A stretch of 38,160 bases of DNA from an uncultured Bacilli bacterium (GTDB lineage: Bacteria > Bacillota_I > Bacilli_A > RF39 > UBA660), in contig CANPYM010000010.1 in the NCBI GenBank assembly GCA_947588685.1, positions 1 through 38,160 on the forward strand. Reading direction: 5' to 3'. Of the stretch, positions 6,168-37,895 are shown one piece after another. Position 1 is the stretch's first letter. Each line of letters opens with the position of its first letter. The translations under genes were made by a program, and so were the position numbers. A model generated the notes under the pieces. The model had not been told where the DNA came from. It did not search any database and was given only the letters and a program-made list of their open reading frames with translations.

Positions 6168-7563
6168 TAGTTTAACTTTTCTTTGTATCTTCTTACCACT
6201 ACTTTTTGTTATTTATTTTATAAGTAGTGATAAATATCGTAATCTAATACTATTTGTTTTCTCCCTTGTTTTCTATGCTTGGGGTGAGCCAAAATATATC
6301 TTTCTTATGTTACTATCGATTAGTGTTAACTATGTTTTAGCTAGATTAATTGATAAATATCGTAAGCGCAAAAAAACTAGTAGAAGTATACTTCTACTAG
6401 CAACGCTATTTAACATATCGTTGCTAGTAATATTTAAATACTTTAACTTCCTAATTGATAATGTTAATGCTTTATTAAACTTAAATATTACTATTCGTGA
6501 TATTGCTCTTCCAATCGGTATAAGTTTCTATACCTTCCAGATTTTATCATATGTAATTGATGTCTATCGGGGCGAAGTTAAGGTTCAAAAGAATATTATT
6601 TCTTTAGGTACTTATATTTCTTTGTTCCCACAATTAATTGCTGGACCAATTGTTCGTTATAGTACAATTGAAAAACAATTAACTCATCGAACGGTTACAT
6701 TTGATAAGTTTACAAAAGGCGTTAAAAGGTTTATTGTCGGTTTAGGTAAAAAGGTTATTATTGCGAATAATATGGCTATGATAGCTGATACAATATTTGA
6801 TAGTAGTAGTGTTTCTGAATATAGTTGGATTATTATTTTAGTTAGTCTACTTGCTTATACTTTCCAAATCTATTTTGATTTTTCAGGATATAGTGATATG
6901 GCAATTGGTCTTGGTCATATGTTTGGTTTTGACTTTGAAGAAAACTTTAATTATCCTTATGCCTCATTTAGTATAACGGATTTTTGGCGAAGATGGCACA
7001 TTTCTTTATCATCATGGTTTAGAGATTATGTCTATATTCCTTTAGGTGGTAATCGTTGTAAAAAGCCCCGTTGGATTTTGAATCTTTTCTTAGTATGGCT
7101 TCTTACCGGTTTGTGGCATGGTGCTAGTTGGAATTTTGTTTTATGGGGACTATACTATTTTGTCATCTTACTTGTTGAAAAATTGTTCTTACATAAGTTA
7201 TTAGATAAATTACCTAAATTACTTCGTTATATATATGCTTTTGTTTTAATCAATATTGGCTGGTTAATTTTTAGAATTGAAGATATCAATACTTTATTAA
7301 TACTATTTAAAAATCTCTTTACTTTAAAAAGAGGGGATTTCTATTTAGATCTTGCTCATAATTATTATCTATTAAATTATGTACCATACTTTATCTTTGC
7401 AATTATCGGTAGTTTTCCAGTTGTAAAGTGGTTTAATCAAAAGATGAAAAACGAATTGTTTAAAACTTGTCTAAGCAATATTTTGTTACTCGCTATTTTA
7501 GGGTTATCAATTATTTTCCTTATTAATAATAGTTATAATCCATTTATCTATTTCCGCTTTTAA
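6157..7563 (+). CDS. MBOAT-family O-acyltransferase (AlgI/PatA-like)
   Basis: 468 residues and ~11-12 membrane helices. It moves acyl groups, usually acetyl, across the membrane for surface glycan modification. Marks include RNLILFVFSLVFYAWGEPKY (28-47), the WRRWHISLSSWFRDYVYIPL block (277-296) and LTGLWHGASWNFVLWG (316-331), whose His321 is the invariant MBOAT histidine. ATG 6157 is chosen because GGAGGTGAT lies 6143-6152; the frame is open further upstream, but that stretch is the end of the DHHW gene in another frame. Translational overlap with the DHHW gene indicates they form one acylation machine. DltB is a relative, but no dltA, dltC or dltD is present, so AlgI-like is the better call. 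Confidence 0.92.
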   Translation: MLFSSLTFLCIFLPLLFVIYFISSDKYRNLILFVFSLVFYAWGEPKYIFLMLLSISVNYVLARLIDKYRKRKKTSRSILLLATLFNISLLVIFKYFNFLIDNVNALLNLNITIRDIALPIGISFYTFQILSYVIDVYRGEVKVQKNIISLGTYISLFPQLIAGPIVRYSTIEKQLTHRTVTFDKFTKGVKRFIVGLGKKVIIANNMAMIADTIFDSSSVSEYSWIIILVSLLAYTFQIYFDFSGYSDMAIGLGHMFGFDFEENFNYPYASFSITDFWRRWHISLSSWFRDYVYIPLGGNRCKKPRWILNLFLVWLLTGLWHGASWNFVLWGLYYFVILLVEKLFLHKLLDKLPKLLRYIYAFVLINIGWLIFRIEDINTLLILFKNLFTLKRGDFYLDLAHNYYLLNYVPYFIFAIIGSFPVVKWFNQKMKNELFKTCLSNILLLAILGLSIIFLINNSYNPFIYFRF

Positions 7564-7595
7564 ATTAAAGGTAGATATATATCTACTTTTAATTT
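7562..7595. terminator. Near-perfect palindrome after the MBOAT gene, possible terminator
   Basis: A 34-base inverted repeat (arms AAATTAAAGGTAGATA and its near complement, one G-T wobble). It is A+T-rich and lacks a clean T-run directly after the stem, so termination is plausible but weaker than elsewhere in the window. Confidence 0.5.
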
Positions 7596-7622
7596 GCATA
7601 AAAGATGATTTTTTGTTAAAAT
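7594..7622 (+). promoter_or_regulatory. Promoter of the acyltransferase-3 gene
   Basis: TTGCAT (7594-7599), 17 bases, TGT-TAAAAT (7617-7622). GGAGTGG follows before the ATG at 7645. Confidence 0.5.
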
Positions 7623-7644
7623 AACTCGTGTTTGGAGTGGTTAT

Positions 7645-8754
7645 ATGAAAAAGAAGGAAACAGTTACAAAACATAATGGTATTATTGCCATATGGAAGTT
7701 TTTATTTGCTTTACTTATTTTATGCTTTCATTGTGCGATATTAATAGATCCTAATCCTAGTCGTTCTTTGTTTGTCAAGGGAAGCATTGGCGTTGAGTTT
7801 TTCTTTTTAGTATCTGGTTATCTTTTAGCTCGTAAGGTTTTTGAAGATGAAGCTAAAGATACAAGACCAATATATCAATCAACATGGCAATATCTTTGTC
7901 ATAAAATAAAATCTTTTTATCCATACCTTTTATTTGCTTTTGTTATTATTACAGCTAGTGATGTTTTCTTGCATCATAATTTATCCCCAATTATACATTT
8001 AGAAAAAATGGCGGAATTGACTTTACTAAATCAAGCCGGTCTTTCGTTCCCATTTTTCAGTAATGTATCGTGGTATTTATCAGCTTTAGTTATTGCTTCA
8101 GCGATTATTTATCCTTTATTAAAAAAATATCAAAAGACTTTTTCCTCATTAGTTGCGCCTATTTTAGGTATTTTGATTTGTTGTTTTTTAATTCATTATA
8201 ATAATGGTCATTTAAGGGGACCAGGTAATTATATATGTTTCGCTTATGAAGGATTTTTTAGAGGATTTGCTGAGTTATTACTTGGTATTACGGCTTATGA
8301 GTTAGTCTTAAGACTTAAAAAAGTTAATTTTACAAAGATTGGTTCCATTGCTTTATCAGTTGTTTGTTTTTCATCTTTAGCTTTTGTTTTTTTGTTTAAT
8401 GCTCTATACAAAAGAGCGATTAAAGTTGATTATATAAGTTTAATTTTACTACTGATAGGTGTTGTAGTAGCTTTCAGTGGCAAGACATTTTTCTTCGAAA
8501 AATGTAATAATAAAATATTTTATTATCTCGAACGACTATCATTACCATTATACTTAAATAATTGTATTTTCATTTATATTATAGATAGTGAATTAATCAA
8601 AGGGGCATTTACCTTATCATATCCTTTAAAGTTTGTACTTGTCATTCTTTTAACTATTCTATTCTCAGCTTTAGAATTATACCTAATGAAATATATTATG
8701 AGGCTATATGATAAAATTAAAAATAGATGTAAAAAAATTATAATAGAAGGTTAA
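7645..8754 (+). CDS. Acyltransferase family 3 membrane protein (OafA/YrhL-type)
   Basis: 369 residues with ~10 membrane helices. The family-3 signature is visible at the start: AIWKFLFALLILCFHC with His29, followed by the GVEFFFLVSGYLL stretch (49-61). These proteins O-acylate extracellular sugars or polyols. It has its own promoter and is closed by a strong terminator, so it is a single-gene unit between the DHHW/MBOAT module and the teichoic acid genes. The natural guess is a surface-polymer modification, but the substrate cannot be read from the sequence. It lacks the extra C-terminal SGNH domain of OatA. Confidence 0.88.
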   Translation: MKKKETVTKHNGIIAIWKFLFALLILCFHCAILIDPNPSRSLFVKGSIGVEFFFLVSGYLLARKVFEDEAKDTRPIYQSTWQYLCHKIKSFYPYLLFAFVIITASDVFLHHNLSPIIHLEKMAELTLLNQAGLSFPFFSNVSWYLSALVIASAIIYPLLKKYQKTFSSLVAPILGILICCFLIHYNNGHLRGPGNYICFAYEGFFRGFAELLLGITAYELVLRLKKVNFTKIGSIALSVVCFSSLAFVFLFNALYKRAIKVDYISLILLLIGVVVAFSGKTFFFEKCNNKIFYYLERLSLPLYLNNCIFIYIIDSELIKGAFTLSYPLKFVLVILLTILFSALELYLMKYIMRLYDKIKNRCKKIIIEG

Positions 8755-8772
8755 TAAATTAACCTTTTTTTT
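8747..8772 (+). terminator. Rho-independent terminator
   Basis: AAGGTTAA-TAAA-TTAACCTT, an 8-bp stem, then a run of T. It overlaps the stop codon of the acyltransferase gene. Confidence 0.85.
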
Positions 8773-8799
8773 GCGCTTTATATAGCGTTATGTTATAAT
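8771..8799 (+). promoter_or_regulatory. Promoter of the GT2-fusion/teichoic operon
   Basis: TTGCGC (8771-8776), 17 bases, TGT-TATAAT (8794-8799). The following genes to 13663 show no clear promoter of their own. Confidence 0.6.
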
Positions 8800-8828
8800 T
8801 AAATGGGATTGTTTAGGAGAAGAAAAGA

Positions 8829-11342
8829 ATGGAAAAAGTTAAAATATCAGTTGTTATACCAGTATATAAAGCTTATGATTATCTTGAAAAATGTCTTGAT
8901 AGTGTGCTTAATCAAAGCTTATCGTTTGAAGATAATATCGAACTTATTTTAATTAATGATGGCTCACCTGATAATAGCGAGGAGATTTGCTTAAAATATA
9001 AGGATATGTATCCTGATAATATCATTTATTTAAAGCAAGAGAATCAAGGTGTATCAACCGCTCGTAATAATGGTATAAGTAAGGCCCGAGGAAAATACAT
9101 TATGTTTTTAGATAGTGATGATTATCTAGAAGCTAATAGCCTTGAAGCTTTGGTAGCGTTTTTTGATGAACATTATGATGAAGTTGATTTAGTTACATAT
9201 CCACTATATTATGATACTTATGGTAAGATAAAAAGACATAAACGTTATGATATCTACAATGGAAAAACAGGGGTTTATGATGTTAATGATATGCCTTATG
9301 TTAATCAATCAACGATTAATGTCGTTGTTAAGAATGAAGAAAATAATCATTTGTTTGATACCCATATGCGCCTTCAAGAAGATCAAAACTATTGTACGGA
9401 AGTAATTATGAAGAAGGGTAAAATTGGGTATGTCAATGAAGCTATTTATTATTATCGTAAGTATGATGCTAGTGTATCGATGTCTCGAAATAACCCTTTT
9501 TATTGCTTTGAAGACATTATGGCTTATAATGAGGGCTTATTAAAAAAATATGAAAATAATGGGATTCCCCGTTATATTCAAAGTTTAGTATCTAATACGA
9601 TCAAATGGCGCGTTAACGAAGATAAATTATATCCATATCATTATCATCATCAAGAGTATGAAAAGGCCGTACGAAGGATTAAAAAAATACTAGAACAAAT
9701 TGATGTTGATATTATTGCGCATATGCCTAATACATCACTTTTAGTTAGAACTTATTTACTTACTTTAAAGGGTATTAAGCCAACTATAAGAAAAGACAAT
9801 GATGATTTTGTCATAACAGCACGTGATGAGGTTATCGACCGGTTTGATAGTATGCCTTGTGTGATTGATCATTTAGTTTTATCAAAATGTTCACTTAAAT
9901 TAGTAGCGACTTTATCTAAGCCATTATTTTCAGGTGATATGCCGGAAGTTTATTTAGTAAAGATGACTAGTGATGGTCTTAAGAAGGATAAGATAACTTT
10001 ACGGGAAGATAATAATGGTTATATTAAAAATATTCCTCTAGCGCCACTATATGGCTTTACTATTGATGTTCCACTTCAAGGCGTTAAAAAATTATCGTTA
10101 GAAGTAATAACGAAAGAGGGGATTTTACCAGTTAAGTTTACGGTTGGAAAGTTTGCATCAAAGATTAAAAATAATTATCACTTCCAGGTTCGTATTTTAG
10201 ATGATGTTTTAGAAGTTAAAAAGACTCATAAACTTGATAGTTTCTTTTATAATTTAAAAAAGATTCGTCGGTGTCCATTAAAAGGAGTAGGATATCGTCT
10301 TTTAACTTTAGTTTATTGCCACAAAAAGGATATTTGCCTATATTATGATAATGGTACTAAAGCTTTAGAAGGAGTGTTTGCTTCAAATAGTCATAAAAAT
10401 GACAATATCAAAAGATATTACATTTACGATGAAAAAGATAAAAAGAAAAAGCCATCTAAAAAGATGCTTAAGTTTGGTTCTTTAAAACATAAAGTTCTTT
10501 TCCTTATGGCAGATAAGTTAGTGACAACTGATTATAGGAGAACATTCTCACCCTTTGGGGCGATGATGAAAAAGTATGATGATATCCTTCATTATCAGCT
10601 TATCTATTATCCAACGTTTATTAATCATATAACCAATTTAAGTGTCTTATCAAGAGAATGTAGTGAGATTGATAAGTGGGTTATATCATCATTTTTTGAA
10701 AAAGAGAATCTAATACAAAAATACCATTTTCAATTAGATGATCTTATTGTTTCCAAAGTTGAAGTTAAACCATCTGATGAAGCTAAAAATAATATTATTA
10801 TTGATCTTGATTACCGGGCTTATTTAATTGGGGAAGAAGTTAATGGTAAAAGACTTCCTAAAGATGATGCTTTTATTCATTCATCTTATTTTAAAGAATT
10901 ATTTCAATTTTTTCATAATCCTAAATTAAATGCTTTGTTAAAACAAAAAAACCTAACATTAACTTTTAGGTTAGATTCACGTTTTAACTCTTATGCCTCA
11001 TATTTTGAATTACAAGGTTTAAATAATATTAAGTTAACTGATAAGTATCAGTTAACTAATCAAGATATTTTGATTACAGATTTTAGTTATCAACAATTTA
11101 ATGCCGCTTTAAAGCAGATTCCTGTTCTTTACTTTTTACCTGATGAGGCAGAGTTTAAAGCGGGTTTACATGATTTTTCAAGACTTGATTTACCATATGA
11201 GCAAGCCTTTGGCCCACTATGTAAAACAAGTGATGAATTGCTAGAAGCCCTTTATCTACTTAGTAAAAAACATTTTAAGGTTGATCCTTTATATCAAAAA
11301 ATAATGAATGATTTTTTTATTACGAAAGATAGTACTAATTAA
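8829..11342 (+). CDS. GT2 glycosyltransferase fused to a degenerate TagF-like domain
   Basis: 837 residues. Residues 1-~230 are a typical GT2-A domain: ISVVIPVYKAYDYLEKCLDS, LINDGSPDNS (41-50) and FLDSDDYL (93-100) are intact, so it should use a nucleotide sugar. A middle region (~230-480) has no family I can name. Residues ~500-837 follow the outline of a CDP-glycerol glycerophosphotransferase, ending in ITDFSYQQFN (~749), the position of the family's TDYSSVIFE. The catalytic histidines are missing: where paralogues have QLWHAMG this protein has LIYYPTF, and where they have KLHP it has FRLD. The C-terminal half may therefore bind or scaffold rather than catalyse. It heads the operon with two intact paralogues. 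RBS AGGAGA. Confidence 0.85.
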   Translation: MEKVKISVVIPVYKAYDYLEKCLDSVLNQSLSFEDNIELILINDGSPDNSEEICLKYKDMYPDNIIYLKQENQGVSTARNNGISKARGKYIMFLDSDDYLEANSLEALVAFFDEHYDEVDLVTYPLYYDTYGKIKRHKRYDIYNGKTGVYDVNDMPYVNQSTINVVVKNEENNHLFDTHMRLQEDQNYCTEVIMKKGKIGYVNEAIYYYRKYDASVSMSRNNPFYCFEDIMAYNEGLLKKYENNGIPRYIQSLVSNTIKWRVNEDKLYPYHYHHQEYEKAVRRIKKILEQIDVDIIAHMPNTSLLVRTYLLTLKGIKPTIRKDNDDFVITARDEVIDRFDSMPCVIDHLVLSKCSLKLVATLSKPLFSGDMPEVYLVKMTSDGLKKDKITLREDNNGYIKNIPLAPLYGFTIDVPLQGVKKLSLEVITKEGILPVKFTVGKFASKIKNNYHFQVRILDDVLEVKKTHKLDSFFYNLKKIRRCPLKGVGYRLLTLVYCHKKDICLYYDNGTKALEGVFASNSHKNDNIKRYYIYDEKDKKKKPSKKMLKFGSLKHKVLFLMADKLVTTDYRRTFSPFGAMMKKYDDILHYQLIYYPTFINHITNLSVLSRECSEIDKWVISSFFEKENLIQKYHFQLDDLIVSKVEVKPSDEAKNNIIIDLDYRAYLIGEEVNGKRLPKDDAFIHSSYFKELFQFFHNPKLNALLKQKNLTLTFRLDSRFNSYASYFELQGLNNIKLTDKYQLTNQDILITDFSYQQFNAALKQIPVLYFLPDEAEFKAGLHDFSRLDLPYEQAFGPLCKTSDELLEALYLLSKKHFKVDPLYQKIMNDFFITKDSTN

Positions 11343-30476: not shown

Positions 30477-32219
30477 ATGAAAACAATCGAAAATAATAGT
30501 TTGTCAATTAGTGATGTTGGTAAACAAGTTGAATTATATGGTTTTGTTAGTAAAAAAAGAAATTTAGGGGGGTTAATATTTGTCGATTTAAGAGATCGTA
30601 GTGGGATTATCCAATTAGTATTTCGCCCTGAGGATAAGGATTATGCCACTGCCGAAACTTTGCGTAATGAATATGTTATTAAAGTTAATGGTGTAGTCAG
30701 TGAAAGGGAATCTAAAAATGATAAAATCGCCACAGGCGAGGTTGAAATCATTGTTCAAGAACTTACTGTTTTAAACACGGCTTTAGAAGTGCCATTTGCT
30801 ATAAGTGATGACACAACAGCGCTAGAAGATACCCGCCTTAAATATCGCTATTTAGATTTAAGACGTAATACTCTTCAACATAATTTAAAAGTTCGTCATA
30901 AAATAACGATGGCCGTAAGAGAATATATGGATTCTCAAGGTTTCTTAGAAATTGAAACACCAGTTTTGTGTAAATCAACCCCAGAGGGAGCTAGAGACTA
31001 TCTTGTTCCATCTAGGGTTAATGATGGCAAGTTTTATGCTTTACCGCAGTCACCACAAATCTTTAAACAATTACTAATGGTTGGTGGTTTAGAGAAATAT
31101 TTCCAAATTGCGAAATGTTTTCGTGATGAAGATTTAAGAGCTGATAGACAACCAGAGTTTACCCAAATTGATATCGAAGCTAGCTATGTTGATGAAAATG
31201 ATATTATGACCATCGCTGAAGGACTTGTTGCTTATGTTTTTAAGAAAATTAAAAATATTGATATTCATTTACCTTTAAGAAGAATGCCTTATAATGAAGC
31301 AATGCGCCTATATGGTAGTGATAAACCGGATTTACGTTTTGCCATGCCAATAAATGATATTACTGATGTTTTAAGAAATACGGAAGTATCATTCCTTAAA
31401 GATGCTATTGATAAGGGTGGTATAGTTAACTGCCTTGTTGTAAAAGATGCTGCTTCAAAATACTCTCGTAAAGAAATCGATAAGCTAACCGAGTTTGTTA
31501 AAACTTATAAAGCGCAAGGACTTGTTTTCCTAAAAATGGAAGAAGAGCTTACAGGTAGTATCGTTAAAAACTTAACAGATAGTGAAACAAGTACTTTAAA
31601 AGAAACACTATCATTAGAAAATAACGATTTAGTTCTTATAATCTGTGGCGAAGAAAAAATAGTTAAAGTAAGTTTAGGTGCTTTAAGATGTAAGTTAGCT
31701 CGTGATTTAGATTTAATCAATAAAGATGATTATCAACTACTTTGGGTAACTGATTTTCCAACTTTCGAATATAGTGAAGAAGAGGGACGCTATGTCTCTT
31801 GTCACCATCCATTTACCTCACCTAAAGATAGTGATGTTGATAAGCTTCTTACAGATAAAGCTAACTGCTATTCTAAAGCTTATGATATCGTTATTAATGG
31901 TTATGAAGCCGGTGGGGGAAGTATTAGGATTCATGACCAAGAAGTTCAAGAAAAAGTCTTTGAAGCTCTTGGCTTAAAGGAAGAAGAAATTAGAGAAAAG
32001 TTCGGCTTCTTTGTTGACGCTTTAAAGTATGGAACCCCACCACATGGTGGTATTGCCTTCGGTTTGGACCGCTTAGTAATGCTTTTACTTGGTACTGAAA
32101 ATATTCGTGATGTTATCGCTTTTCCAAAAACAGCTTCGGCTTCTTGCTTGATGAGTGAAGCTCCAAATGCTGTTTCTGATTTACAACTAAAAGAATTACA
32201 TATAAAATTAGACAAGTAA
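30477..32219 (+). CDS. aspS: Aspartyl-tRNA synthetase
   Basis: 580 residues, bacterial-type class II enzyme. N-terminal OB-fold anticodon domain (GLIFVDLRDRSGIIQLVF, about 32-49), catalytic core with LPQSPQIFKQLLMVGGLEKY, then FRDEDLRADRQPEFTQID (motif 2), a GAD insertion domain, and motif 3 GIAFGLDRLVMLL. The last catalytic segment (RDVIAFPKT) is intact. Whether it also charges tRNA-Asn cannot be decided here. It has its own promoter and terminator. Confidence 0.96.
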   Translation: MKTIENNSLSISDVGKQVELYGFVSKKRNLGGLIFVDLRDRSGIIQLVFRPEDKDYATAETLRNEYVIKVNGVVSERESKNDKIATGEVEIIVQELTVLNTALEVPFAISDDTTALEDTRLKYRYLDLRRNTLQHNLKVRHKITMAVREYMDSQGFLEIETPVLCKSTPEGARDYLVPSRVNDGKFYALPQSPQIFKQLLMVGGLEKYFQIAKCFRDEDLRADRQPEFTQIDIEASYVDENDIMTIAEGLVAYVFKKIKNIDIHLPLRRMPYNEAMRLYGSDKPDLRFAMPINDITDVLRNTEVSFLKDAIDKGGIVNCLVVKDAASKYSRKEIDKLTEFVKTYKAQGLVFLKMEEELTGSIVKNLTDSETSTLKETLSLENNDLVLIICGEEKIVKVSLGALRCKLARDLDLINKDDYQLLWVTDFPTFEYSEEEGRYVSCHHPFTSPKDSDVDKLLTDKANCYSKAYDIVINGYEAGGGSIRIHDQEVQEKVFEALGLKEEEIREKFGFFVDALKYGTPPHGGIAFGLDRLVMLLLGTENIRDVIAFPKTASASCLMSEAPNAVSDLQLKELHIKLDK

Positions 32220-32371: not shown

Positions 32372-33259
32372 ATGAATCAAGAAAATAATAATACTATTCC
32401 TAATCAAGAACCACCAAAAGCTGTTTATCCTAAAGAGTATCAAGCACCATCGACGACAGCTGATGCGTATACTTTTGATTACAATCAGATATATAATGTT
32501 GCGCCAACCCAACCAGCTATAGAAAATAATACAGCTAATCAATTAAATAATGGTGCTATAAGTTCGGAACAATTTAATCCCCTTAGTAACAATTTTGTAT
32601 CTGAGAATAATCCAGTAACACCAATGAATGCTTCTAATGTGACACCGATGAATTATGATGTCAATGCTTCTTTTGAAAGTTTAAAAATGGCGGCGCCACC
32701 ATCATTTGAATTACCCAAAGAAGAGCCAAAGGAAGAAGTAGTAACACCTATTATTCCTGATGTTCAAAAAGAAGATTTGGTTAGTATTGATATTATTGAA
32801 CCATCAGCGCTACCTGTTGGTAATGCTGTTCGGGATAGTATGTATTTAAATAATGGACCTGTGCCAAGTGAAAGGGTAGTAGATGTACCTAAACCAGTAG
32901 CTAATAATCAACCTTCAGCTATGCAGATGAATCCTTTTGCTCCAACGCCACAAACGCAAGCACCAGTAAATGTAGCTTTCGGTGTTAGTCAACAACCTCA
33001 AAGACCTGTAAGTCAGCCACCAAGTCCTCAACCTGTTCAACAAGGACCACAGGCGGGATTAGTATCTGATCCGATGTCTATCTTTGGTGTTGAATCAGGA
33101 CTTCGACCAACTGCTGGTGAGGCTTTAAGTGGCCAACAGCAAACTGGTGTTAGACAAGCGCCAACACCTAGTGAAGGTATCGGCGTATGTCCTAGTTGCG
33201 GCTTTACTGTTAAGCCAGATCAACCAATTTGTGTTGTGTGTGGGTATCGGTTTAAATAA
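32372..33259 (+). CDS. Disordered protein with C-terminal zinc ribbon
   Basis: About 295 residues. The first ~265 are low-complexity, rich in Asn, Gln, Pro, Ala and Ser, with no recognisable fold or membrane helix. The end is a clean zinc ribbon, CPSCG at 273-277 and CVVCG at 287-291. ATG 32372 is chosen because AAAAGG is 9 bases upstream; the ATG at 32363 abuts it. The stop overlaps the start of the next gene, which also carries a zinc ribbon. By position it would fill the role of the zinc-ribbon member YdjG in the Bacillus pspA-ydjGHI operon, but the body is not visibly related. Confidence 0.8.
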   Translation: MNQENNNTIPNQEPPKAVYPKEYQAPSTTADAYTFDYNQIYNVAPTQPAIENNTANQLNNGAISSEQFNPLSNNFVSENNPVTPMNASNVTPMNYDVNASFESLKMAAPPSFELPKEEPKEEVVTPIIPDVQKEDLVSIDIIEPSALPVGNAVRDSMYLNNGPVPSERVVDVPKPVANNQPSAMQMNPFAPTPQTQAPVNVAFGVSQQPQRPVSQPPSPQPVQQGPQAGLVSDPMSIFGVESGLRPTAGEALSGQQQTGVRQAPTPSEGIGVCPSCGFTVKPDQPICVVCGYRFK

Positions 33260-34008
33260 TGAAAACAGGTTTGTTTATAATCATTGTGTTTGCTACTTTT
33301 GTAGTTGCATTCTTAGTTACATTCTTTATCGTATTGCATTATATTAAAATAAAGATGCGTTGGTTAGGTTTTGATACTAATGTTAAAAATTTTACGGAAA
33401 CGATGCATACTCTAAAACTAGAAGATAGCAAAAGAGCGCGAAGTGCTTCGGGTATGACGAAAGTTCTTTTACCGACAATTCGTAGAGATTTTCCGGAGTT
33501 TAACGAAAATCACTTGTATAATCTGACAGAAGAGAGTCTAAGAATTATCTTTAGAGCTTTGACAGAAAAAAGAACTGATGAACTAGCCAAAGTACCTCTT
33601 CTTAAAGAAAATATAACAATGATGCTTGATGATATGCGAAAGAATGATATTGCACATATCTATCGTGACATTATTTTCCATGACTTTGCTATTAAGGATT
33701 ATCATCGTGATAATGGCGTTGCGACCATAACGGTTAGTGTATCTTTAGAGTATTACTACCGGAAGACGAAAAATGAAGCCATCTTAATTGATGATAAGTA
33801 TAAACGCCAGACGCGTTATGCGTGTGAGTTTATCTATATTTATAATGAGTCTTTAGTTAAAGACTATGAAAAGGTGTTAGCAACTAATTGCCCAAATTGT
33901 GGAGCGGTTATTAAATCCCTAGGCCATAAGTATTGTGAATATTGTGGTACCGCTATTAAAGAAATCAATTTGAAAGCTTGGGCATTTAGTTCCTATAAAG
34001 AGTATTAG
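33259..34008 (+). CDS. Membrane-anchored protein, Tim44-like domain plus zinc ribbon (YdjH-like)
   Basis: 249 residues: one N-terminal membrane helix (about 4-28), a linker, then a domain (about 65-200) whose beta-rich end, IIFHDFAIKDYHRDNGVATI, then TVSVSLEYYYR resembles the Tim44-like fold, then a zinc ribbon with Cys211, Cys214, Cys226 and Cys229 (CPNCG / CEYCG). The last 18 residues are Trp/Tyr/Lys-rich. The order anchor, Tim44-like, zinc ribbon next to an SPFH gene matches Bacillus YdjH. The start overlaps the upstream stop (TAATG). Confidence 0.75.
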   Translation: MKTGLFIIIVFATFVVAFLVTFFIVLHYIKIKMRWLGFDTNVKNFTETMHTLKLEDSKRARSASGMTKVLLPTIRRDFPEFNENHLYNLTEESLRIIFRALTEKRTDELAKVPLLKENITMMLDDMRKNDIAHIYRDIIFHDFAIKDYHRDNGVATITVSVSLEYYYRKTKNEAILIDDKYKRQTRYACEFIYIYNESLVKDYEKVLATNCPNCGAVIKSLGHKYCEYCGTAIKEINLKAWAFSSYKEY

Positions 34009-34023
34009 AAAGAAGGTTAAAAA

Positions 34024-35205
34024 ATGGGATTAATTAAAGCAGCCATAGGGGCCGTCGGATCCACGTTAGGAGATCAATGGGAAGATTATATAAACTGTGA
34101 AAGTATGGACAATAATACCCTAGTTGTCAAAAGAACAACAAAATCAGGACAAATAAGTTCTAAAAGTAGAATTCAGGTTAACCCTGGACAAGTAGCTATT
34201 ATCTTTGATTCTGGTAAAATCTTAGATGCTACTGCTGAAGAAGGTATTTATTCATTTGATTCATCATCATCACCAACTTTATTTGCTGGTCAATTTGGTG
34301 AGGTATTTAAAGAAGCTGTTCAACGTTTTACATATAATGGTACACCAGCTAAGGAACAAGCAGTATATTATATCAATGTAAAGGAAATATTTGATAATAA
34401 GTTTGGTTCATCATCACCAATACCATATGATGATCCAGAATATCATGATATTAGAATTAAGTATCATGGCCAATACACATTTAAGATTTCTAATCCATTA
34501 GTTTTCTTCCAAAATGTTGTTGGTAATGTTACCGATGTATATACGAAAGATACTTTAATGGAACAAGCTGATGCTGAGTTCTTAACTTGCATCGCTGGCG
34601 CTATTGGTAAATGTGCATCTGATGGTATCAAATATAGTTATTTAACAAATGAACAACAAAGAATTGCTGATTATATGAATGATGCCTTAGATGAAAAATG
34701 GCGTAATTTAAGAGGTATGGAAGTTGTATCTGTTGCCTTAGATACACCAGTACCAGATGAAAAATCACAAGAAAGAATTGAGACATTCGCTGATTCTAAG
34801 TTCTATAGTAAGCAAGAAAATGCTGCCGGCCGAATGGTTGCGGCTACAGCTACAGCTATGGAAAGTGCTGCTAGTAATGAAAATGGAGCGGCTAGTGGCT
34901 TTATGGGATTAGGTATGATGAATATGGCTGCTGGTAATATGATGGGGGGAACCTCTCCAATTGCTTATACAAAACCATCAGAAGAACCTGCACCTGCAAC
35001 TGCTACTCCAGCTAATGAAGTTCACTGTGCTAATTGTGGCACTGTTGTAACTGGTAAGTTCTGTTCTAATTGTGGAACTAAAGTAGAAGAACCAAAAGAA
35101 GAAGTTAAAGAAGAACCACAAGTAAAGAAATGTCCTCAATGTGGTACCGAAGCAGCTTCACCTGAGGCTAAATTCTGCGGTAATTGTGGTACAGCTTTAG
35201 AATAA
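34024..35205 (+). CDS. SPFH-domain protein with two zinc ribbons (YdjI-like)
   Basis: 393 residues. An SPFH/band-7 domain fills about 10-270 (RIQVNPGQVAIIFDSGKILD near 49-68, IKYHGQYTFKISNPLVFF near 140-158), without a clear membrane helix. A Gly/Ala/Met-rich linker with GMMNMAAGNMMGG follows, then two zinc ribbons: Cys335/338/347/350 and Cys370/373/385/388. Between and around them is a Pro/Glu/Lys spacer. In Bacillus YdjI is a SPFH protein that helps localise PspA at stressed membranes. AAGAAGG precedes the ATG; a terminator follows the gene. Closing gene of the three-gene operon. Confidence 0.85.
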   Translation: MGLIKAAIGAVGSTLGDQWEDYINCESMDNNTLVVKRTTKSGQISSKSRIQVNPGQVAIIFDSGKILDATAEEGIYSFDSSSSPTLFAGQFGEVFKEAVQRFTYNGTPAKEQAVYYINVKEIFDNKFGSSSPIPYDDPEYHDIRIKYHGQYTFKISNPLVFFQNVVGNVTDVYTKDTLMEQADAEFLTCIAGAIGKCASDGIKYSYLTNEQQRIADYMNDALDEKWRNLRGMEVVSVALDTPVPDEKSQERIETFADSKFYSKQENAAGRMVAATATAMESAASNENGAASGFMGLGMMNMAAGNMMGGTSPIAYTKPSEEPAPATATPANEVHCANCGTVVTGKFCSNCGTKVEEPKEEVKEEPQVKKCPQCGTEAASPEAKFCGNCGTALE

Positions 35206-35210
35206 TTATT

Positions 35211-35236
35211 AACCACTTCCTTAGAAGTGGTTTTTT
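35211..35236 (+). terminator. Terminator of the SPFH operon
   Basis: AACCACTTC-CTTA-GAAGTGGTT with a T-run. Confidence 0.88.
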
Positions 35237-35247
35237 ATATGCAAAAA

Positions 35248-37034: not shown

Positions 37035-37895
37035 ATGTTTGCAGATTTAGAAGTATATAAAGAAGAAAAACAAAAATTTCAACAACAATTAATTGATTTA
37101 CAAGCTTCGCAACTTGATGATAAAGAGATTCGCGCTCGTGAAATGCAAGCTAAATTTCGAGATGATATTAGAAAGTATTTACCTACTTGTCTAAACATCA
37201 TTAATAATCTCTATCATTGCCATTTTTCTATTTATAAAATAGGTAAAGATTATGATGCAGCTTTTCGAGTTATTGAAACAAATGTTAAAAAGACGAAGGG
37301 TGAGATTGAGTGTGAACTTACCAATTATCGTAGTTCTGTTAATATGGATACTTTAAGTGAACTTGATCGTAATCGCCTCGATTTAGCAACGGAAATTATC
37401 CTTACGTATGTTGGTGATGATGACAATTCCGAAAAAAATAAATATCTAGAACATTCAAGACCAGTTGGCAGTAGTATTGTAAGTCAAACTAATACCCCAA
37501 TGGAAGGCGTTTTATCAAGTGCTAATGAAGCGGGAGAAATTCAATATAATCCTTATGCTAATCAACCAATTGTAACTAGTGATCAAACATCTGAAGAAGC
37601 TAATTTAGGCATTTTTGGTTCCAACGTATCTAATCAAGCTGTAACTAGTGATGCTGATTATCGTAATATGGTTGATCAAAGTGCTTCAAACATTAGTGGT
37701 AAGTTCTTCAGTACTGATATCTTTGGTGTTGGTAGTGGCAACCTTATGGCTGAAGATGAAGTTGTTACTAACAAAGAAGCAATGAAAGAAATAGCTAAAA
37801 ACCCTAATGCTAGTCAAGGAATGGATTTAGGTGGCTTACCTGAAAAAGAAGAAACAAAAAAAGACGTTAATGATCTTTTAGCGCCTATGGAATAA
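37035..37895 (+). CDS. Uncharacterised protein, helical N-terminus and disordered C-terminus
   Basis: 286 residues, not recognised. Residues 1-~130 are charged and helical (KEEKQKFQQQLIDLQASQ, then EIRAREMQAKFRDDIRKYL), likely a coiled coil with a small folded core containing Cys54 and Cys64. The rest is Ser/Asn/Gly/Glu-rich and looks disordered, with the repeated fragment VTSD (twice) and a DIFGVGSG stretch similar to SIFGVESG in the protein at 32372. There is no membrane segment. It starts 1 base after the nucleotidyltransferase and lacks a normal ribosome site. Confidence 0.75.
   Translation: MFADLEVYKEEKQKFQQQLIDLQASQLDDKEIRAREMQAKFRDDIRKYLPTCLNIINNLYHCHFSIYKIGKDYDAAFRVIETNVKKTKGEIECELTNYRSSVNMDTLSELDRNRLDLATEIILTYVGDDDNSEKNKYLEHSRPVGSSIVSQTNTPMEGVLSSANEAGEIQYNPYANQPIVTSDQTSEEANLGIFGSNVSNQAVTSDADYRNMVDQSASNISGKFFSTDIFGVGSGNLMAEDEVVTNKEAMKEIAKNPNASQGMDLGGLPEKEETKKDVNDLLAPME

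Follow-up and report, generated by a model that had tools for sequence, protein, structure and literature searches.

Organization of the P1-T-S locus

We analyzed a stretch of 38,160 nucleotides from an uncultured gut bacterium of the Bacilli (contig CANPYM010000010.1 of assembly GCA_947588685.1, our contig C10), hereafter the window, with a focus on three adjacent zinc-ribbon genes, here called P1, T, and S. The assembly is 1.16 Mb in size, consists of 30 contigs, and is 88.7% complete. An earlier note on this DNA had described the three genes as a YdjGHI-like module without PspA, by comparison with the phage shock protein (Psp) operon pspA-ydjGHI of Bacillus subtilis. The three open reading frames (ORFs) are co-directional on the + strand, span 32372-35205 (~2.8 kb), and carry four zinc ribbons in total:

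32372..33259, + strand: P1, largely disordered N/P/Q-rich protein with one C-terminal zinc ribbon; 295 aa from ATG 32372, 298 aa from ATG 32363
33259..34008, + strand: T, N-terminal transmembrane (TM) helix, then a Tim44-like (NTF2/cystatin-like) domain whose last strand is preceded by a zinc ribbon; 249 aa
34024..35205, + strand: S, YdjI-like SPFH protein with two C-terminal zinc ribbons and no predicted TM segment; 393 aa

That three zinc-ribbon genes lie side by side was confirmed by the ORFs, the Pfam ribbon matches, the invariant cysteines, and the gene order, which is kept in all 12 genomes of the genus (our own and 11 others). The end of P1 overlaps the start of T by a single base, and 15 bp separate T from S. 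A Shine-Dalgarno-like GAAAAGG abuts ATG 32363 and, judged by eye, is normally spaced to ATG 32372. Therefore, the latter, which the earlier note had also used, is the better start of P1. A terminator-like site was found just 3' of S, one of eight in the window against a mean of 1.8 in shuffled sequences:

35211..35237, + strand: terminator-like hairpin with a T run (9-pair stem, then TTTTAT)

The three genes look like one transcription unit.

The four zinc ribbons are located as follows:

33188..33256, + strand: P1 ribbon, C-x2-C-x10-C-x2-C (C276, 279, 290, 293)
33889..33954, + strand: T ribbon, C-x2-C-x11-C-x2-C (C211, 214, 226, 229)
35026..35079, + strand: S ribbon 1, C-x2-C-x8-C-x2-C (C335-350)
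35131..35193, + strand: S ribbon 2, C-x2-C-x11-C-x2-C (C370-388)

The ribbon cysteines of S and P1 are invariant in the genus alignments (12 rows each), and all four of T are present in 55/55 aligned sequences. When the proteins were run singly against Pfam, the ribbon scores of P1 and T fell under the curated cut-offs; in a genome-wide ribbon search, the T ribbon passed and that of P1 did not. The loops are conserved inside each family and differ between the families in length and conserved residues, a pattern that speaks neither for nor against the mutual recognition proposed in the earlier note. The idea that each gene ends in ribbons holds for P1 and S but not for T, whose ribbon precedes the conserved W241 and the last strand. 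Three of the 11 Zn_Ribbon_1 places of the assembly (E <= 0.01) fall within the P1-T-S stretch. Three ribbon genes in a row occurred in 0.07% of random draws (11 among an assumed 1,100 genes), an after-the-fact test, as the cluster had been noticed first.

S, an SPFH protein with YdjI architecture

The Pfam profile search placed an SPFH domain in S:

34150..34770, + strand: SPFH/Band_7_1 domain of S (residues 43-249), PF13421, E 5.9e-15

Together with the two ribbons, this match agrees with the YdjI layout that had been proposed for the last gene. No TM segment was predicted in S by a Kyte-Doolittle scan. The AlphaFold model of S was of middling confidence (pLDDT 72.7), and its best Foldseek match was human stomatin (E 3.2e-9), with TM-scores of only 0.32/0.44; the fold also matched HflK/C assemblies. 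In a sequence search of the PDB with the S profile, stomatin appeared at 0.047. Judging from the profile match and the model, S is an SPFH protein with the architecture of YdjI, an SPFH domain followed by C-terminal ribbons.

T, a putative membrane-anchored Tim44-like protein

T starts with a hydrophobic helix, found by the same type of scan and covered by an AlphaFold helix at residues 2-35:

33277..33333, + strand: predicted TM segment of T (residues 7-25)

Among the 18 Pfam families listed for T up to E 10, the Tim44 family (PF04280) was absent. Relatives of T did match it at E <= 0.001, namely 3 of 28 in a first alignment and 15 of 55 in a second (best 8e-8). The AlphaFold model (window and named loci) reached a pLDDT of 88.8 and displays the N-terminal helix, further helices, and then a curved sheet, with the ribbon (211-232) preceding the last strand (242-248), beside W241. 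In the model, the ribbon is thus built into the fold and not hung on its end. The best Foldseek match of this predicted model was the C-terminal domain of human Tim44 (2cw9; E 2.8e-4, TM 0.43/0.55), and VIA aligned the two over 152 residues at 3.9 A with a Z of 11.8. VIA scores to mitoribosomal and ARC6/PARC6 entries tie with that to Tim44, and those of mitoribosomal large-subunit chains, which we take to be mL45, reach a Z of 12.4. The structure alignments drew on 54 of 77 T references and 31 of 50 S references.

By sequence, the T profile matched ten longer Tim44 proteins with zinc ribbons (Tim44-ZnR) of the same bacterial family at E 2e-22 across the domain, the ribbon contributing partly to this value, and all ten match PF04280. 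Human Tim44 itself came up only at E 0.68 when the T profile was searched against PDB sequences. The PF04280 matches of the relatives and the AlphaFold model support T as a membrane-anchored Tim44-like protein. The earlier proposal of a Tim44-like T is therefore upheld through relatives and predicted fold, although Pfam misses the window copy. T shares its predicted fold with the PF04280 family (human Tim44 2cw9, yeast 3qk9) but differs in having a ribbon before the last strand and an N-terminal TM helix.

Two other assignments of T were considered and rejected. As for YdjH, its domain is TPM; the TPM gene lies elsewhere in the genome, and TPM was absent from the 18 Pfam families listed for T up to E 10. 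As for a rearranged YdjG, the profile alignment of T to 16 YdjG-like proteins fell mainly on the ribbons (E 1.2e-8 over 73 columns) and gave no support outside them.

Another type of Tim44-ZnR gene also occurs in this bacterial family (L046, L047, L049, L053, L054, and L056), often as two or more in a row that encode proteins of ~175 and 285 aa. The longer form begins in a signal-like manner, in many cases with a Gly/Ser-rich stretch thereafter, and genes of this kind adjoin S in L053, L054, and L056.

YdjG-like and TPM genes at a second locus

According to PMC11237479, YdjG has two zinc ribbons followed by an NTF2-like domain and a membrane segment, YdjH is a TPM-domain protein, and the band-7 protein bears a ribbon at its C-terminus. 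PMC8581546 describes B. subtilis YdjI as having no membrane segment, and reports that the membrane foci of YdjI and PspA need YdjG and YdjH. Going by the published ydjG and ydjH primers, translated by eye, YdjG would start with a CxxC and YdjH would end without one.

We searched the genus for YdjG-like proteins with a profile of six such proteins, and found a TPM gene directly beside a YdjG-like gene at a separate locus in 12/12 genomes. In the assembly of the window, this pair lies on contig C7 (L241:3595-5489) and not beside S. The earlier note had matched T to YdjH. This was not borne out, since YdjH is the TPM protein and the TPM gene is on C7. The genome thus holds counterparts of YdjG, YdjH, and YdjI; therefore, T is an addition, and the system is divided between two loci, not reduced.

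The YdjG-like protein of L241 has two N-terminal ribbons and one C-terminal membrane segment. Upstream of the pair, many genomes of the genus contain a small ORF, presumably DUF1292-like, and a conserved ORF of ~190-415 aa.

Distribution of PspA

No PspA (PF04012) was found in the window, as the earlier note had stated, or in the rest of its assembly. The same search gave a match in 0/12 genomes of the genus, seven of which have a completeness of >=90% and a contamination of <=5%. As a control, the search was positive in 9 of 14 well-known genomes. We further scanned named genomes with one ribbon-containing pattern and took the best 80 of at least 290 confirmed T-like loci, the majority of them from Clostridia and Bacilli records; within these loci, no match to a PspA profile was found. 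In a sample of 296 genomes of the class, PspA was detected in 11, of which 7 were above the cut-off. A strong S match (E <= 1e-30) was present in 42 of the 296, and 40 of these 42 had no PspA match. PspA is rare in the class, so its absence is no special loss by S-owning genomes. An avoidance of PspA by T across the class was considered and dropped, the overlap being 0 with only 0.33 expected.

Two members of the class, G129 and G152, have pspA, YdjG-like, and YdjI-type genes in a row (Pfam was run on those of G129 only), so our tools do detect the classical arrangement. The S protein of the window differs from the YdjI-type proteins of these two genomes in its start and sequence. The earlier note had held that a pspA directly beside these genes in relatives would speak for a normal Psp operon. 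No PspA match was found in the 12 genus genomes or in the best 80 named loci; in G129 and G152, pspA lies beside YdjG-like and YdjI-type genes.

Linkage of T with S

At E <= 0.001, T had matches in 27 of the 98 genomes sampled from the family; at E <= 1e-20, 16 genomes of other genera matched. The 80 named loci represent the closest portion of a larger family, and at least 6 of them belong to the window's own genus; the nearest named T among them, from an uncultured Bacilli bacterium record, shares 87% identity over the best segment. For linkage, 78 of the 80 loci were counted, as two had no called T gene. A gene run was defined as genes on the same strand with gaps <500 bp, counting no more than 3 ahead of T and 4 behind it, and PspA, YdjG-like, and TPM genes were called with profiles from 7, 6, and 3 sequences, respectively. 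T and S shared a gene run in 48/78 loci; 12 of these 48 also had YdjG-like and TPM genes, and 12 more had a YdjG-like gene alone. A YdjG-like gene without S was seen in 2/78.

In the class sample, T or a Tim44-type match at E <= 1e-10 was found in 9 of 296 genomes, four of them T proper. All nine are among the 42 with a strong S (hypergeometric 1e-8), a group that was hand-counted from the full list of 116 S-profile matches with the 1e-30 line drawn afterwards. With all 116 genomes, the value becomes 1.8e-4; kinship is ignored in both. Among 13 S loci of the class that we read, a YdjG-like gene is present in 7, a Tim44-type gene in 4 others, and neither in 2. Hence T accompanies S, whereas S is joined by other partners in genomes that lack T.

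Several loci deserve mention in their own right. L144, from a record titled Bacteroidales, has the order S, YdjG-like, T that is otherwise seen in Lachnospiraceae loci, which may reflect contamination, mislabelling, or transfer. Additional ribbon-ending genes occur a few genes from S, such as an LppM-like one (L033:8379-9542) and, within the genus, short ribbon-ending proteins (L095:2553-3269, L096:8506-9150, L097:7891-8496, and L099:8158-9584). These hint at further ribbon-tagged clients.

P1, a disordered ribbon protein of the genus

As the earlier note had recognized, P1 is largely a disordered Asn/Pro/Gln chain, unlike YdjG; N, P, and Q make up 32% of it. Its only Pfam match is a weak one to a ribbon (7.7e-4). 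Where uncut by a contig end, which truncates 2 of the 12, the ORF varies from 298 to 891 aa across the genus, and what is conserved is the ribbon and two short motifs:

32777..32821, + strand: P1 motif of the L-V-S-I-D-I-x-E-P-x-x-L-P-V-G type (residues 139-153), 12-row alignment
33068..33112, + strand: P1 motif before the ribbon, IF(G)...(L/I)RP, 12-row and 11-row alignments

In the first motif, P151 is invariant in the 12 rows, and S141, I144, E146, P147, L150, and V152 are conserved at >=90%. In the second, I240, R248, and P249 are invariant in both alignments.

A family search with the match in the P1 frame revealed that the P1 ORF starts with the membrane domain DUF5684 (PF18936) in 7/12 genus genomes; two of the seven were also checked by Pfam (5e-13 and 6e-12). 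Of the other five, one has a separate DUF5684 ORF just upstream, two are cut by contig ends, and two, the window and G102, are without the domain. The family search found DUF5684 neither in P1 of the window nor elsewhere in its assembly. Compared with other DUF5684 proteins, the seven P1 orthologs share the N-terminal domain but have it fused to a lengthy disordered region with a zinc ribbon, and the window copy is without the domain. In L093, P1 is apparently split into a DUF5684 ORF (8580-9203) and a disordered-ribbon ORF (6621-8561), 18 bp apart. This is either a step towards the P1 without DUF5684 seen in the window, or an assembly or reading-frame break.

P1 was found by protein search in 9/12 genus genomes; in G099, G100, and G106, its assignment relies on gene position together with a short match at the C-terminus (E 1.5e-5 to 4.6e-8). 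We built a C-terminal profile (A6) from 11 of the 12 P1 tails, omitting that of L094 for its long insert. At E <= 0.001, A6 matched 35 of 97 genomes of other genera, the best at 2.5e-7 versus 2.3e-27 for the window. Surveyed collectively, these matches begin at model position 11 or later and consist mostly or wholly of the ribbon. The exception, G090 (model 2-57), falls inside its S gene.

A 286-aa protein encoded further downstream in the window (37035-37895, + strand) contains IFG-type motifs (e.g. STDIFGVGSGNL) resembling SIFGVESGLRP of P1. Neither Pfam nor NCBIfam gave it a match above cut-off. The resemblance is also seen in some other genomes of the genus, and SIFGNNS occurs in both proteins of L093. 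The two proteins may share a binding partner, going by these motifs; this is only a lead, because five other ORFs of the window (32 ORFs >=100 aa) also hold IFG.

A possible PspA-free SPFH membrane scaffold

The comparison with pspA-ydjGHI of B. subtilis yields both likenesses and differences. Both systems have an SPFH protein with C-terminal ribbons and without a TM segment, ribbon-bearing membrane partners, and YdjG-like and TPM proteins in the genome. Here, however, no PspA was found, the YdjG-like and TPM genes are at another locus, and T and P1 are beside S. The description of a YdjGHI-like module without PspA thus stands for the YdjI type of S and for PspA, and falls for T, which is not YdjH, with the YdjG-like and TPM genes elsewhere. 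We give about an even chance to the reading that P1-T-S is a PspA-free variant of a YdjGHI-type SPFH membrane scaffold in which T acts as an additional membrane partner, as does P1 in this genus.

In such a scaffold, S, which lacks a membrane segment, would form oligomers via its SPFH domain on the inner side of the membrane. A single N-terminal helix would anchor T, which would present its Tim44-like domain with the built-in ribbon and help to hold S at the membrane. P1 would be a long flexible further partner of this genus whose ribbon docks on the S assembly, DUF5684 serving as a putative membrane anchor in 7/12 orthologs. The YdjG-like and TPM (YdjH-like) proteins of the second locus would belong to the same assembly, which probably organizes membrane protein complexes, or repairs them, when the envelope is stressed, and does so without PspA. 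By analogy with B. subtilis YdjI, we infer an S oligomer under the membrane that is held by ribbon-bearing membrane proteins, namely T, P1 in much of the genus, and the YdjG-like and TPM pair. Our data show the genes with their domains, their conservation and co-occurrence, and the lack of a PspA profile match. Physical contact, the direction of recruitment, the ribbons as docking sites, and the stress role are likewise what we infer.

Several results weigh against this scaffold. A strong S and PspA coincide in 2 class genomes where 1.6 are expected by chance; therefore, S does not avoid PspA. Of the 42 strong-S genomes of the class, 33 lack any match to T or the Tim44 type at E <= 1e-10, so S does not need T in general. 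Conversely, in 28 of the 78 named T loci the run contains neither S nor a YdjG-like gene (9 of the 28 lie no more than 2.5 kb from a locus end), and T may also act alone. The C-terminal profile search found no clear P1 ortholog in the 97 other genera sampled; therefore, P1 is not part of a general system. An N-terminal amphipathic helix of S was also considered and rejected, as its moment was not above that of shuffles (326 to 849 of 2000 as high; 16/32 aligned sequences).

Three other explanations were weighed. An ordinary Psp system, in which a PspA/ESCRT-III protein acts with S and was missed through divergence or an assembly gap, would fit the incomplete and fragmented assembly, the nearness of S to YdjI in architecture, and the side-by-side genes of G129 and G152. 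We consider it very unlikely, given that PF04012 was found in none of the 12 genus genomes, seven of good quality, while the controls were positive, and that no PspA profile matched in the best 80 named loci; the 40 of 42 strong-S genomes without PspA point the same way, though at chance level. It is unlikely that T resembles mitochondrial Tim44 or MRPL45 in function, tying a translocon, insertase, or ribosome to the membrane, with S forming a holdase ring that serves membrane-protein quality control in the way HflK/C serves FtsH. The human Tim44 and mitoribosomal matches of T and the HflK/C matches of S agree with such roles; the fold of T is also found in ARC6/PARC6 and many NTF2-like entries, and therefore does not give the function.

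Finally, zinc ribbons are frequent, and P1, T, and S might merely share a promiscuous module while doing unrelated jobs. The 11 Zn_Ribbon_1 places in the 1.16 Mb assembly, the different ribbon types of the three proteins, and the many S-bearing class genomes (most of them) without T would be in line with this. Against it, the order P1-T-S is kept in 12/12 genomes although the genes 3' of S differ in 5 of them, the T-S linkage recurs in Clostridia and Bacilli records, and the spacings are only one base and 15 bp. We regard this explanation as quite unlikely.

YdjI and its partners have been studied as helpers of PspA. SPFH, YdjG-like, and TPM genes are kept genus-wide without detectable PspA, and Clostridia have T-S loci without a nearby pspA, which suggests that the helper complex has its own job. 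A broader version of the PspA-free scaffold would be an SPFH complex of gut Firmicutes in which T takes over membrane recruiting, with lineage-specific tethers such as P1, forming an envelope-stress or membrane-assembly machine without ESCRT-III. We put this version forward tentatively and hold it to be somewhat doubtful, in view of the 33 strong-S class genomes (out of 42) in which T and Tim44-type matches are missing. T is a candidate membrane anchor, and its Tim44-like fold with the inserted ribbon may offer a handle on how some bacterial SPFH assemblies are placed on membranes. A literature search, with most subscription journals and preprints outside its coverage, found no paper on the P1-T-S gene set.

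Further searches and flanking genes

A defense system was considered and rejected. For the YdjG-like protein, PADLOC gave a weak match in the ribbon region (PDC-S64, 2.4e-5) and SspE at 0.012; S matched Csx1 at 0.083, and P1, T, and TPM had no match. NCBIfam returned nothing useful. The P1-T-S genes are flanked by what we take, by recognition, to be aspS (30477-32219) before P1 and truB (35274 on) after S.

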